A stretch of DNA of 64,000 nucleotides, taken from positions 1 to 64,000 of the forward strand of contig JAERTJ010000037.1 of assembly GCA_016844945.1 (NCBI GenBank). Reading direction: 5' to 3'. Positions 977-58,067 of the stretch are shown in pieces. The notes under the pieces were generated by a model. That model saw only the letters and a program-made list of their open reading frames with translations. It did not search any database and was not told where the DNA came from. A program made the position numbers and the translations under genes. How positions within the stretch are numbered: position 1 is the stretch's first letter; every line of letters starts with the position of its first letter. The DNA is from Fidelibacterota bacterium. GTDB lineage: Bacteria > Fidelibacterota > UBA8477 > JABMPR01.

Positions 977-1043
977 ATCCCATCAAAAAAAGTTTCCAGA
1001 TTTATTCTCCGCTCGGTGAAGTAAGTCTTATATTGAATCGTTA

Positions 1044-1128
1044 TTCGGGGTGCCCGGTGACTCCCGCGGAGTCCGGGCTGAGATCAAACCCTTTGAACCT
1101 GATCTGGATCATGCCAGCGTAGGGAGAA
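1044..1128 (+). promoter_or_regulatory. TPP riboswitch (THI element)
   Basis: All conserved blocks of the thiamine pyrophosphate aptamer are readable in order: CGGGGTGCC, a variable P3 hairpin (CCCGGTGACTCCCGCGGAGTCCGGG), CTGAGA, ACCCTTTGAACCTGATCTGG, and ATCATGCCAGCGTAGGGA. The final AGGGAG (1121-1126) is both the 3' end of the aptamer and the ribosome binding site of the gene starting at 1132, five bases away. There is no separate terminator hairpin between aptamer and start codon. Control is therefore most likely at translation: TPP binding closes the stem and hides the Shine-Dalgarno sequence. A possible -10 box TATATT lies at 1029-1034, with no good -35. Confidence 0.96.
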
Positions 1129-1131
1129 AAT

Positions 1132-3444
1132 ATGTACCACATTTTTGTTCTTTTTGTTTCCATCCTTTTTCTATCCAATTCCGTCCTATCACAATCAACA
1201 TCGATCCAGGCTGTTGTTGTAGATGCTGAAAGCAATCTTCCCCTCGAAGGATGCGAAATCCTTTGTGGTTCACAGGGCACGATCACAGATGCGATGGGTC
1301 AATTCTCATTCGATAATGTTTCACATTCTGAAATTCAAATCCAACACATTGGTTTTGAATCTTTGACCCTCCCTTTGAATGAGATAACACCTGTTATACA
1401 TCTTGTCCCCATCACAATGATGGGTGAATCAGTAAAAATCTATGGTGCACTGACGACACAATCTCTCATTGACTCTGAATCTGGGATTTCGGTGATCAGC
1501 CAACGAGATATCCGTAATTCCAGTCAACCCCATTTTCAGGCGTTGATCAATTCTGTCCCTAATCTCAATTGGGCAGGGGGTAGTTCTAGACCTCGTTATT
1601 TTCAAATTCGAGGAATTGGTGAGCGATCACAATACGCAGGTGACGGACCACCTAACTTCTCTGTAGGCTTAAGCGTTGATGATCTGGATTTGAGTGGTAT
1701 TGGAATGGCTGGGATGACATTTGATGTGGATCGTGTTGAACTCTTCAGGGGACCTCAGTCCTCAATTTACGGACCCAATGCGCTAGCAGGATTTATCGTA
1801 ATGAGATCTGTAGAACCCGGGGAACATTCAACCAATTTTGTGACTGTGTCTGCTGGTTCTGGAAACACGCTGAATCTGGGTGTTGCTCTTGATCTGGTGA
1901 ATCATCCCGCTCTAAAGGCTCGTATGGCGTTTTACCGGGGCTATAACAACGGGTTTCGTAAAAATGAATACCTGAATAAGGACAACACAAATGAACGCCA
2001 GGAAACAATGAGTCGTCTCAATCTCATCTGGCAACCCGCATCAGCATTCAGGATTAAAACAACACTCCTTAATGTCTTCCTCGACAATGGCTATGATGGA
2101 TGGAGTCCTGATAACAGCCCCTACACCACATACACAGATAAACCTGGAAAAGACAGCCAGAAATTATTTGGTGGGGTAGTGAATCTAAGGTATGACTTTG
2201 GAGTAAGAACTTCGCTAAATGCGATATTGAGCCGATCAGAAGCTGATATTGAACACAGCTATGACAGCGATTGGGGAAATGATGACTTTTGGTCTCAAGA
2301 ACCCTATAGCGTTGAGGGCTGGAGTTATGATTACTTTGATCTGATCAATCGCGATCGAGAAACAATGACTCAGGAACTTAGGTTGAGGCATCTTTCATCT
2401 GGTGAGCGAATTAGAATCATCCTTGGTGCCTACCATAAAAGTCTCACTGAGCAAGACGATGCTCAGGGATACTTGTTTGGAGGGGATGAATCGTCCCTTC
2501 TGAGTGAATTCCTCCTCAATAATCAATCGTTTTATGGGCAATTTGATTTCATGCCAAATCAAAAATTCAAGATTTCTACAAACTTTCGTGTTGGGGTACG
2601 AAACACTGACTATAACGATGACAAAATGACCTCATTCGCCATAAAAGATCAACTCAACGGTGGGAAGCTGGCATTGCTTTATAAGTTTAACCAAAGAACC
2701 ATGGCCTTTGTAAATGCAGCCAGGGGATTCAAAGCAGGAGGAATCAACCAACATCCACGGATAATAGAAGCTCATCGACCATTTAAACCAGAATACGTAA
2801 ATAATTTTGAATTGGGTTACCGTGGCTTTTCCAGGATCTCAATGGTTTCCCTGGTAGGATTCTATACTCAACGGATGGATCAACAAGTATCTCTCTCCAG
2901 TCAGCAAGACCCCTCAGATCCTAATAGCTTTACTTATTATATAGGGAATGCTTCCTCGGGTTATGTCACTGGTTTAGAATCCGAATTCAGAATGCAACTC
3001 GGAGAAAAAATTAATCTTTCAGGTACATTAGGCCTGCTCAAATCCCAAACAGATGAGTATTCATTTGAGGTCTCTGCGAGTGAGTTCATTACTTTGGGTG
3101 ATCGTGAGTTTGCTCATGCACCAAAATACTCTTATCGGTTCGGCGCTGATTACATTCTCAATAAAGCAGTCTCCCTGAGCATTGATTATGCCCGGAAGGA
3201 TGCGTTCTATTTTTCAGAAAGTCATGATCAGATGTCCAAGCCCTACCAGACCCTGAACTCCGTTTTGACTTATCGCTGGAATGAGTCCATCATGTTGACT
3301 GTATGGGCAGACAATGTTCTGAACACTCAATATGCAACCCGAGGGTTTTATTTTGGTCTTGAACCACCGAATTATGAGGATAAGCTGTATATGAGCTATG
3401 CAGATCCACGCCAGGTTGGCGCTACACTCAGGTATACATTTTGA
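1132..3444 (+). CDS. TonB-dependent outer membrane receptor, probable thiamine(-precursor) uptake
   Basis: A 770-residue receptor. A signal peptide (about residues 1-20) is followed by a carboxypeptidase-D-regulatory-like beta domain (about 25-100, AVVVDAESNLPLEGCEI), a plug domain (about 115-235, with FQIRGIGERSQY and DRVELFRGPQSSIYGPNALAG), and a barrel ending in the terminal aromatic residue expected of outer membrane proteins (RYTF). Such receptors import scarce ligands using TonB-ExbBD energy. The substrate follows from regulation: a TPP riboswitch directly precedes the start codon, and riboswitch-controlled TonB-dependent receptors in Bacteroidota-type genomes are predicted thiamine transporters. 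Family and regulation are firm; the exact ligand (thiamine, TPP or pyrimidine precursor) is inferred. Confidence 0.92.
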   Translation: MYHIFVLFVSILFLSNSVLSQSTSIQAVVVDAESNLPLEGCEILCGSQGTITDAMGQFSFDNVSHSEIQIQHIGFESLTLPLNEITPVIHLVPITMMGESVKIYGALTTQSLIDSESGISVISQRDIRNSSQPHFQALINSVPNLNWAGGSSRPRYFQIRGIGERSQYAGDGPPNFSVGLSVDDLDLSGIGMAGMTFDVDRVELFRGPQSSIYGPNALAGFIVMRSVEPGEHSTNFVTVSAGSGNTLNLGVALDLVNHPALKARMAFYRGYNNGFRKNEYLNKDNTNERQETMSRLNLIWQPASAFRIKTTLLNVFLDNGYDGWSPDNSPYTTYTDKPGKDSQKLFGGVVNLRYDFGVRTSLNAILSRSEADIEHSYDSDWGNDDFWSQEPYSVEGWSYDYFDLINRDRETMTQELRLRHLSSGERIRIILGAYHKSLTEQDDAQGYLFGGDESSLLSEFLLNNQSFYGQFDFMPNQKFKISTNFRVGVRNTDYNDDKMTSFAIKDQLNGGKLALLYKFNQRTMAFVNAARGFKAGGINQHPRIIEAHRPFKPEYVNNFELGYRGFSRISMVSLVGFYTQRMDQQVSLSSQQDPSDPNSFTYYIGNASSGYVTGLESEFRMQLGEKINLSGTLGLLKSQTDEYSFEVSASEFITLGDREFAHAPKYSYRFGADYILNKAVSLSIDYARKDAFYFSESHDQMSKPYQTLNSVLTYRWNESIMLTVWADNVLNTQYATRGFYFGLEPPNYEDKLYMSYADPRQVGATLRYTF

Positions 3445-53561: not shown

Positions 53562-55009
53562 TGAGTCTGTTCCTTCTTCGAATGGTTAAATATAATAAGA
53601 ATCAATATACTACAAATAAGTCCTGGATAGAATGGTTCCAGTCCAAAATGATAATTGTAATTATCTGCTTTTCCAAAAGCAAGCCAGAGGATCGATGATG
53701 CTGGCACGAGTGTTAGATTCAAGCGAACAGCCCGCGCTGGCATAGGTTTACCAAAAATACTTCTCAGGGTTGGCAGGAGCAGGGCAGGGATGGCTATAGT
53801 ACCAAATGTGTACCATAGATCGATAATAGATGGAATCCAGATTGCCAGGACAACACCGACCAAAAGCACCAGGATCATCCCCGTTTTTATGAGACGGTTC
53901 GTGGGGAAGCGTTTAAACAATGGAAATGTGCCTAGGATGTCCTTTCCAAGCGTGATTCCAGATATAAGTGTATTACTGTCCAATGTGGACATAACCGTAG
54001 AAAGAATACCGATATAAAAGATTCCCTGAAGACCTATGGGCAGAATTGCGTTTCCAAGGTTAAGGAATGCCTGTGATGGTATCGAATCAGAGGGGAGATA
54101 GGAAAATGCATATAATCCTGTCAGGGTGGTCATGAAGTCAAATATGAACCAGAATAGTACGGCGAACATAATTCCGCGCCTGGCAACTTCAGGTGTTGCA
54201 GTCGCATATACGCGTTGATGAAACCCGGGATCAACCAATGTCCATGACCCTATAAAAAACCATACAATGATGTAACCCAGGCTCTGACCACCCGTAAATG
54301 ATTTATGCGAGGAGGGGAGAGCGTGCCACAGTTCTATTGGATTCATAAAACTATTTGAAAGCACAACCAAAAGGATCGCAAAGCCTAAAAACATCATATA
54401 AAACTGTATTATATCAGTTTTAACTACAGAAGTAAACCCACCTTGAAGGATATAAATGAGTGAGAATAATGTCCCTGTAATGATTGAAGCAATCAGAGGG
54501 ATGCCCAGAAAATAATTCAGGATTATTCCCAGAGTCAGTACATATGGAGCAGGACTAGCCAGCAACAAAACCCATAGTGAAGCCAATCTACCAACGGTTT
54601 TGCCATAATCTGTGACCAGAATTTCGGGAAGCGAATTCACCCGCAATGAACGTGCACGTTTTGCCACTAAGAGGGAAAATGCGATCCCGAACAAATAGTA
54701 GGGTAGCCCAAAGATAACCCAGTTGGATATGCCATAGCTGGTACTGTACTCACTGACCCCAAGGATACCCCCATACCAGGTGGACACCAGGGTCATCACA
54801 AAAGCGGGGAGTGAAAGCTTACGACCCATGACCATGTAGTCAGTTACAGAATCACTCCTTGTGTTTCGAATGCCAACCATAAGAACTAGGAGAAAGTAGC
54901 CGAGAATCAGGGTAATATCTAATAAATGTAGATTGATAAGTATATCTTCTATATTACTGATACACTGCGATATATACTGATCCTGACATAAGACTGAACT
55001 GCGGGTCAT
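53558..55009 (-). CDS. Sodium:solute symporter family protein, candidate thiamine/pyrimidine transporter
   Basis: 483 residues, about 13 membrane helices starting near LLDITLILGYFLLVLMVGI. Hallmarks of the SSS family: YMVMGRKLSLPAFVMTLVSTWYGG, GGFTSVVKTDIIQFYMMF, DPGFHQRVYATATPE, STVMSTLDSNTLISG. The gene starts inside the end of the thiamine pyrophosphokinase gene, so they are coupled. That context suggests thiamine or an HMP-like precursor as substrate, comparable to predicted ThiV transporters, which are SSS members. This is inference; proline, glucose or other ligands are equally allowed by sequence. The start is uncertain: the first ~30 residues before the first helix are unusual and no ribosome binding site is obvious. 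Confidence 0.82.
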   Translation of the reverse strand: MTRSSVLCQDQYISQCISNIEDILINLHLLDITLILGYFLLVLMVGIRNTRSDSVTDYMVMGRKLSLPAFVMTLVSTWYGGILGVSEYSTSYGISNWVIFGLPYYLFGIAFSLLVAKRARSLRVNSLPEILVTDYGKTVGRLASLWVLLLASPAPYVLTLGIILNYFLGIPLIASIITGTLFSLIYILQGGFTSVVKTDIIQFYMMFLGFAILLVVLSNSFMNPIELWHALPSSHKSFTGGQSLGYIIVWFFIGSWTLVDPGFHQRVYATATPEVARRGIMFAVLFWFIFDFMTTLTGLYAFSYLPSDSIPSQAFLNLGNAILPIGLQGIFYIGILSTVMSTLDSNTLISGITLGKDILGTFPLFKRFPTNRLIKTGMILVLLVGVVLAIWIPSIIDLWYTFGTIAIPALLLPTLRSIFGKPMPARAVRLNLTLVPASSILWLAFGKADNYNYHFGLEPFYPGLICSILILIIFNHSKKEQTQ

Positions 55010-55592
55010 CAATAATGGCTAAATTGCTCTGACTCGAGCTGTTGTGATGGCTATCCAGATGTTCAATGTCCCACTTTAAACCCCTGGTTGCCAACCCGCT
55101 GTATTGAGTGACTGGCAGGACGCTCAAAGTGTTGCCCTGCTTGACTTCATGGTCGATATTAGTGTTTGGAGTTAACCGGATTATTTTTTCCAAAACTATT
55201 TTGTCAGAAATGATCTTTTCGCTTAGAATTGTAATATTTACAGAATTATCAACTAATGCACAAACATGCAGGTTGCTAAGCAAATGATCCGTCCGACCCC
55301 CAGTTGCACCGAGCAATATCAATGAATTTGGCGTATAGGATTCAAGCAAATACTCCAGCGTTTTTTCAAGGTCTGTAAAATTCTGGTCAGGTGTGTGTAC
55401 AACACGAATAGTATTATTTTCAGGCAGTTCAACAGAATCCAGATCACCAATAATTAAATCTGGAGATAAAGAATATTTCTTTAGTGTATTGAAGCCACCA
55501 TCAACTGCAACAACAAGATCAGTTTTATCTATTTGAGACTGTAGGAGTTGTTTGTCGGGTGGTTCACCCGCTAATACAAGTAATATGTTCAT
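54954..55592 (-). CDS. thiN: Thiamine pyrophosphokinase
   Basis: 212 residues. The catalytic domain has VVAVDGGFNTLKKYSLSPDLIIGDLDSV (the DGG and GDxDS motifs binding ATP/Mg), DQNFTDLEKTLEYL (TDxxK), and LLGATGGRTDHLLSN (GGRxDH). A beta-sandwich thiamine-binding C-terminal domain follows (ISVLPVTQYSGLATRGLKWDIE type). It transfers pyrophosphate from ATP to thiamine to make TPP, the ligand of the riboswitch at 1044. It lies eight bases downstream of the nucleoside kinase and overlaps the symporter gene by over 50 bases. Confidence 0.95.
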   Translation of the reverse strand: MNILLVLAGEPPDKQLLQSQIDKTDLVVAVDGGFNTLKKYSLSPDLIIGDLDSVELPENNTIRVVHTPDQNFTDLEKTLEYLLESYTPNSLILLGATGGRTDHLLSNLHVCALVDNSVNITILSEKIISDKIVLEKIIRLTPNTNIDHEVKQGNTLSVLPVTQYSGLATRGLKWDIEHLDSHHNSSSQSNLAIIDDPQFSLMSGSVYIAVYQ

Positions 55593-57468: not shown

Positions 57469-57521
57469 ATTTGATTGAAACGCTTTGACTTTAATCAATC
57501 AGTATGGATAACGGAGATCCC

Positions 57522-58067
57522 ATGGCATTCATTAAATATATTAATCCGGAGGACATCCCATCTGCGGATAGCGTCAACGATACAGATCATATTCTCAGGA
57601 TTCATGGCGTGCATAGTAGAATTATGAAACATCATTATACGCTATACAAAGAATTGATGTACAGCAAAGGACCACTGACCAGAATTCAGCGAGAAATGAT
57701 AGCCGTATTAGTCTCTGCAATTAATAAGTGTCACTACTGAATTAAGCACCACGGGGTGGGTCTCCGAAGGTTATTAAAGGCAAAGGGTATGTCTGTTCAG
57801 GAACAGGATGATTTAATAACAGCACTGGAAAATGAATCCATACCATCTGAAATTGATCAACAGGATCATTCGTTACTTCAGTATGCTGAGAATTTAACCC
57901 GAAATCCTGCAAGCATTGTGGCAGGTGATGTTGAAGCCCTTCGAAGTGCGGGTCTTGATGATCGAGGTATACACGATGCCTGTTGCATCATTGCCTACTT
58001 CGCTTTTGTAAATCGAGTTGCAGATGGGCTGGGCGTAGAATTAGAAGCGGACTTCCCGGTTGATTAA
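57522..58067 (+). CDS. AhpD-like/carboxymuconolactone decarboxylase-family peroxidase-related enzyme, read through in-frame TGA as selenocysteine
   Basis: One frame of 182 codons interrupted only by TGA at 57738-57740. The protein, taken as 181 residues with Sec73, matches peroxidase-related AhpD-like enzymes end to end: TRIQREMIAVLVSAINKCHY before the TGA and IKHHGVGLRRLLKAKG after it, then LLQYAENLTRNPASI, DVEALRSAGLDDRGIHDACCIIAYFAFVNRVADGLGVEL. The family motif is CxxCxxHH, so TGA stands exactly at the second redox cysteine, giving C70-H-Y-U73. A hairpin with SECIS properties follows. AhpD-like proteins reduce peroxides or disulfides via this pair. ATG 57522 is preferred over 57504 because GGAG lies five bases before it. 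A point-mutated pseudogene is the main alternative; no selA-D is in the window. Confidence 0.85.
57748..57771 (+). promoter_or_regulatory. Bacterial SECIS-like hairpin after the in-frame TGA
   Basis: CGGGG (57752-57756) pairs with CTCCG (57762-57766) around loop TGGGT; below a small internal loop ACC (57748-57750) pairs with GGT (57769-57771). The loop begins 16 bases after the TGA and has G in its second position, within the rules for bacterial SECIS elements, and GGTCT in the loop/stem recalls the fdhF element. Confidence 0.65.

Follow-up and report, generated by a model that had tools for sequence, protein, structure and literature searches.

A predicted selenocysteine-containing AhpD-like protein of the TIGR01926 family encoded in a Fidelibacterota genome

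The interrupted gene and its surroundings

The stretch of DNA analyzed here, referred to below as the window, comprises 64,000 nucleotides of one contig from a Fidelibacterota bacterium. It contains a frame that starts with the ATG at 57522, is interrupted by a single TGA at codon 73, and is otherwise open up to the stop codon ending at 58067 (Table 1). The TGA lies in the context C-H-Y-TGA-I-K-H-H, and the start of the protein, MA(F/Y)I, is common to the window gene and its relatives. An earlier note on this DNA had placed the TGA at the codon of the second cysteine of an AhpD-type CxxC site, had assigned both halves to one frame, and had expected conventional annotation to split the gene. 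All three statements hold: the TGA aligns with cysteine in homologues and is the only interruption of the 181 codons, and an ordinary list of ORFs cuts the gene into parts of 78 and 103 residues.

Table 1. Positions of the gene and of its features in the window.
Feature	Position	Strand	Remarks
AhpD-like (TIGR01926 peroxidase-related) gene, predicted selenoprotein, full	57522..58067	+	181 codons including Sec, plus stop; read-through translation
GGAG, likely ribosome-binding site	57513..57516	+	5 nt upstream of the ATG; read from sequence
Glu58 codon, AhpD relay glutamate	57693..57695	+	spacing equal to that of PA0269 Glu36
Cys70 codon, first residue of the CxxU pair	57729..57731	+	Cys in all 51 homologous loci read
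TGA, predicted selenocysteine 73	57738..57740	+	of 50 phylum loci read, 39 have TGA and 11 have TGT or TGC; TGA also in L011
His77 codon, AhpD relay histidine	57750..57752	+	bases overlap the SECIS stem
Bacterial SECIS hairpin (predicted)	57748..57771	+	lower stem 57748-57750/57769-57771; upper stem 57752-57756 (CGGGG)/57762-57766 (CTCCG); loop 57757-57761 (TGGGT)

The six neighboring genes examined encode an SSF transporter, a thiamin pyrophosphokinase, a uridine kinase-like protein, a PPIase, a protein of beta-lactamase fold, and a CHASE2 cyclase; together, they point to no pathway. Of the nine other loci from the same genus, five (L028, L030, L031, L033, and L035) also have the beta-lactamase-fold neighbor downstream, as judged from flanks of no more than 1.5 kb. 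At window positions 1036 to 1142, far from the thiamin pyrophosphokinase gene at 54954 to 55592, lies a TPP riboswitch (71.3 bits).

Downstream of the TGA, a hairpin can be drawn whose 5-bp upper stem closes a 5-nt loop with G at loop positions 2 and 3. The spacing between the TGA and the loop is 16 nt, and the fold energy is −7.7 to −8.3 kcal/mol for segments of 24 to 32 nt. The bacterial SECIS model, as given in the available part of a 2026 review, consists of a stem of 4 to 16 bp, a loop of 3 to 9 nt with G in the first two loop positions, a spacing of 16 to 37 nt, and an energy of −7.5 or lower (PMC13188914). The window hairpin satisfies all of these constraints (−8.3 kcal/mol), in agreement with the earlier description of a loop 16 bases from the TGA with G as its second base. 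In one respect, this model is loose, being satisfied by 85 of 800 TGA triplets sampled from both strands of the window. The energy of the hairpin is also ordinary when judged against synonymous recoding, with 88 of 500 draws as low; among the 12 sequences recoded in this way, the values for the other eleven were 5 to 246 of 500. The stem in the window is partly fixed by Gly codons. Since about every tenth TGA triplet fits the model and the energy is unremarkable, the hairpin alone proves little. An Rfam search over positions 57600 to 57900 returned two weak matches to unrelated families, both below their gathering scores.

Family and active site

With C substituted for U, residues 24 to 173 of the read-through protein match the NCBIfam family TIGR01926 ("peroxidase-related enzyme") with 104.3 bits, above the cut-off of 81.8, and the Pfam CMD family is matched with 43.6 bits (cut-off 23). 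Scores for AhpD proper (TIGR00777, 19.7 bits; cut-off 191.95) and for NF041238, AhpD_rel_CFYUT (69.7 bits; cut-off 175), are far below the respective thresholds. Sestrins contain an AhpD-like domain, and the Pfam sestrin family PA26 is barely at its cut-off here (29.4 bits; protein residues 19 to 78, window positions 57576 to 57755).

The protein also matches six solved chains by sequence; for 2oyo, 3c1l, 2pfx, 6k40, and 2prr, the alignments cover 136 to 150 residues with E values of 1.5e-13 to 1.1e-21. Four of these homologues (2oyo, 3c1l, 2pfx, and 6k40) carry CxxC, without selenocysteine, where the window protein has CxxU, and in the four printed alignments, the second cysteine lies beneath the window TGA. 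The spacing of E58, C70, Y72, U73, and H77 equals that of Glu36, Cys48, Tyr50, Cys51, and His55 in PA0269, whose relay is likened, in the text available to us, to Glu118, Cys130, His132, Cys133, and His137 of Mycobacterium tuberculosis AhpD (PMC3141380). Since the residue spacing matches that of PA0269, selenocysteine in the window protein would stand in place of Cys133. The active-site core, consisting of Glu, Cys-x-[HY]-Cys/Sec, and His at equal spacing, is thus common to the window protein and AhpD proper (M. tuberculosis AhpD and TIGR00777); the two differ in that Sec replaces the second cysteine and Tyr replaces His132.

The TGA codon and the hairpin in relatives

Among 245 genomes of the phylum, 65 gave a total of 75 matches, and 52 of the 65 contain a match with TGA. 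Sixty-two of the matches have TGA, 11 are full-length without a stop, and 2 are fragments without a stop. We read 50 of the 75 loci: the 30 best matches and another 20, among which are all 11 full-length stop-free matches. Each of the 39 TGA loci read has the motif C-x-Y-TGA, with the TGA as its final codon; the other 11 loci have TGT or TGC at this position. Within the genus, the gene was found in 10 of 19 genomes, each time with the TGA; the remaining nine gave no match. The sole additional internal stop among the loci read is a TAG in one same-genus locus (L027, G228:C4), which also has the selenocysteine TGA; either this copy is decaying or the assembly is wrong here.

The codon is also found outside the phylum, in locus L011 of Candidatus Zixiibacteriota. 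We took the Zixibacteriota set as another phylum, as its 132 genomes share no listed member with the 245. Matches were found in 34 of these genomes, 27 of them with TGA, and 28 of the 35 matches have TGA. Nine of the loci were read, L011 and eight more, of which seven have TGA at the same codon and two have Cys. Apparent extra stops in four second-phylum matches (G321, G274, G343, and G304) were the genes' own terminal stops and were discarded.

The protein sequence past the TGA is conserved in the manner of a coding region: changes per codon position 1, 2, and 3 are 0.32, 0.23, and 0.59 (11 sequences). The downstream half evolves faster than the first half (mean dN of 0.34 versus 0.19; many dS values are saturated). 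In a tree of 51 rows, Sec and Cys rows fall on opposite sides of one branch; its support is only 59/72 and the branches are long, and the tree does not establish a single origin of the Sec form.

A second group of AhpD-like paralogues (L067 to L073) is 32 to 36% identical to the window protein and has C-x-Y-TGA followed by (A/S)-H instead of HH. Ten genomes have two TGA matches each; both copies from G065 and the second copy from G145 were read. The other PF02627 match in the window's own genome (L002) has no CxxC in its open frame.

Counting the TGA as positions 1 to 3, pairs 16-28, 17-27, 18-26, and 19-25 form in all 32 loci of the main groups, a count that leaves out L011 and L067 to L073. 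With synonymous codons drawn for the same peptides, this four-pair stem is expected in 4.1 of the 32. The fixed-stem test was devised after the alignment had been seen, and the sequences compared are related rather than independent. When all 40 Sec loci read in the phylum and in L011 are counted, the stem is found in 36, as compared to none of the 11 Cys homologues. It is missing in L011 and in three of the seven loci of the second paralogue group (L067, L070, and L073); L011 and L070 fit the published model with another hairpin. Mean fold energies are −7.5 kcal/mol for the 40 Sec loci and −2.4 kcal/mol for the 11 Cys loci. The full model, including the energy limit, is satisfied by 26 of 46 Sec loci, the window gene among them, and missed by 20, so that in this respect it is strict; none of 13 Cys loci satisfies it. 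In the second phylum, six TGA loci fit the full model and two Cys loci do not, with the same fixed stem in only two of the six. Four of these loci (L076 to L079) have hairpins of other sequence after the TGA, e.g., a 7-bp stem with the loop GTT, that satisfy the same model.

Two-sided changes were seen at two pairs in three sequences: two of them have CG instead of GC at 16-28, and the third has AU instead of GC at 17-27. In the related loci L037 and L039, the first Gly that follows HH is replaced by Arg and the next Arg by Val, and together these changes keep pair 16-28 as C-G; here, the protein follows the RNA structure. Of 31 distinct rows, 14 lack the outer pair 15-29, and 2 of these 14 belong to the 16-locus clade of the window gene. 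The number of shuffles, out of 500, that reached the observed value was 0 for the percentage paired, 15 for the covariation score, 18 for two-sided pairs, and 159 for pair types. Sliding the 3′ arm by +3 in the 32 loci gave a covariation of 0.237 versus 0.230 in the true register and 10 versus 3 two-sided cells, with 65% versus 91% paired; within the 16-locus clade, the true register comes out first by every measure. As both the TGA and the specific stem are conserved, the hairpin stands above chance.

Readings of the TGA, function, and known selenoproteins

The window's own genome is a draft of 4.73 Mb in 234 contigs, with 90.7% completeness and 6% contamination. It contains a tRNA-Sec with anticodon TCA (72.8 bits), selB (342 bits), and selA (513 bits), the latter two at most 5 kb apart on contig C86, as well as a Sec-type selD (368 bits) that has an in-frame TGA of its own in the context AAG-U-AGK. 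The selenophosphate synthetase thus looks like a selenoprotein too (TGA at 1528 to 1530 of L021, G000:C86). Since selA is present in 18 of the 19 genomes of the genus, this one included, it is unlikely to come from a stray contig of the bin. Across the phylum, selA was found in 177 of 245 genomes, in 48 of the 52 TGA genomes, and in 6 of the 11 Cys genomes. Its enrichment in TGA genomes (Fisher p of 0.0002 versus the rest and 0.006 versus Cys genomes) is uncorrected for the relatedness of the genomes. The four TGA genomes in which selA was not found (G066, G094, G184, and G225) are drafts.

The gene could be an AhpD-like pseudogene that a nonsense mutation has inactivated, or a pair of short genes, as the split in the ORF list and the extra stop in L027 would allow. 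The same TGA codon in 39 of 39 phylum TGA loci read, the conserved protein downstream of it, and the lack of further internal stops in TGA loci other than L027 make this very improbable, and we rejected it given the conservation of the TGA across genus, order, and phylum. A one-base sequencing or assembly error, conceivable in a draft of so many contigs, is less probable still: TGA is found in 62 of 75 matches in the phylum and in 28 of 35 in another, and the same codon recurs in genomes of other species. Translation of the TGA as another residue, through a changed code or read-through, would likewise yield the full frame. However, the residue aligns with a catalytic cysteine, the genome has the Sec machinery, and Sec loci, unlike Cys loci, share a conserved SECIS. 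Moreover, among six single-TGA read-through frames of 90 codons or more that overlap little with other ORFs of the window, this gene alone resembles one protein in two halves, the other five having been judged by eye from their translations, without a search. With one convincing frame of this kind in the window, general reassignment of TGA was rejected, and a residue other than selenocysteine appears highly unlikely.

Decoding of the TGA as selenocysteine is therefore strongly supported by the comparison of genomes, and the gene is almost certainly intact and predicted to encode a CxxU AhpD-like (TIGR01926) selenoprotein. This was the reading of the earlier note, and the points it had singled out for checking, i.e., selA, selB, selC (tRNA-Sec), and selD in the genome, cysteine opposite the TGA in homologues (11 phylum loci and four solved structures), and a SECIS kept in Sec relatives and absent from Cys loci, all came out in its favor; the scattered further stops in relatives that would have spoken for decay were not found in the loci read, L027 with its one extra stop aside.

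SelB and Sec-tRNA-Sec, acting on the hairpin just past the UGA, would insert selenocysteine at position 73, judging from the anatomy of the locus. We infer a redox role of the protein from its family. Cys70 and Sec73 would form a CxxU redox pair aided by Glu58, Tyr72, and His77. By analogy with M. tuberculosis AhpD, the Sec73 selenolate would most likely attack a hydroperoxide or the disulfide of a partner protein; Cys70 may then resolve the intermediate as a selenenylsulfide, to be reduced by a thiol donor. The protein might instead act mainly as an adaptor or thiol-disulfide reductase that hands electrons to a separate peroxidase, in the way that AhpD serves AhpC, rather than reduce peroxide directly. 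According to the available text of PMC3141380, M. tuberculosis AhpD is an adaptor for AhpC that has peroxidase activity as well, and Tyr in place of His132, as in the window protein, was suggested to weaken peroxidase activity. A peroxidase is absent among the six neighboring genes examined, which argues against an adaptor, and we regard this role as possible but rather doubtful.

Within the clade of the window gene, all 16 phylum loci read, from four families, are Sec forms, and no Cys form was encountered; a close copy of the gene (L080, 59% identical) occurs in the second phylum. We tentatively suggest that selenocysteine may be old and kept in this AhpD-like subfamily, in which case selenium would be a fixed requirement in these lineages rather than an occasional swap. 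The G-x-G-L after Sec may, on the same tentative footing, owe its presence in part to the SECIS that its codons form, as none of the 11 Cys homologues read has it.

Selenoproteins of this kind are already in print. In the available text of the respective papers, a survey of the Sargasso Sea (2005) reports 27 AhpD-like sequences with CXXU (PMC1088965), the Global Ocean Sampling analysis (2008) reports 299 "AhpD-like 1" sequences, fourth by number in its table, and 70 "AhpD-like 2" sequences (PMC2398784), and the 2026 review lists an "AhpD-like protein, TIGR01926, CxxU" (PMC13188914). A literature search for selenoprotein and TIGR01926 returned that review alone, and one for selenocysteine and Marinimicrobia returned, by title, nothing on this AhpD-like protein. 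An assay of the CxxU form was not seen in the literature available to us, which was not searched systematically. The published AhpD-like selenoproteins (COG2128/TIGR01926), likened here by the descriptions available, have the same NCBIfam family and CxxU motif as the window gene, which is one more member of this described kind. The hint of novelty in the earlier remark that a CxxU member in this lineage would be of interest is thereby weakened. As far as the available accounts go, the species of origin of the Sargasso sequences are not known, while the window gene belongs to a genome equipped for Sec insertion, and its relatives extend over the genus, the order, and the phylum. Read properly, these loci make up a collection of predicted AhpD-like selenoproteins that are anchored in genomes, can be set against matched Cys homologues, and share a conserved SECIS. 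Such a collection offers a clean basis for studying why selenocysteine is retained by a lineage in a thiol enzyme. AhpD_rel_CFYUT (NF041238), outside of which the window protein falls by score, is likewise a CxxU AhpD-related selenoprotein and is listed in the available part of the same review as the Sargasso "hypothetical protein 1" (PMC13188914).
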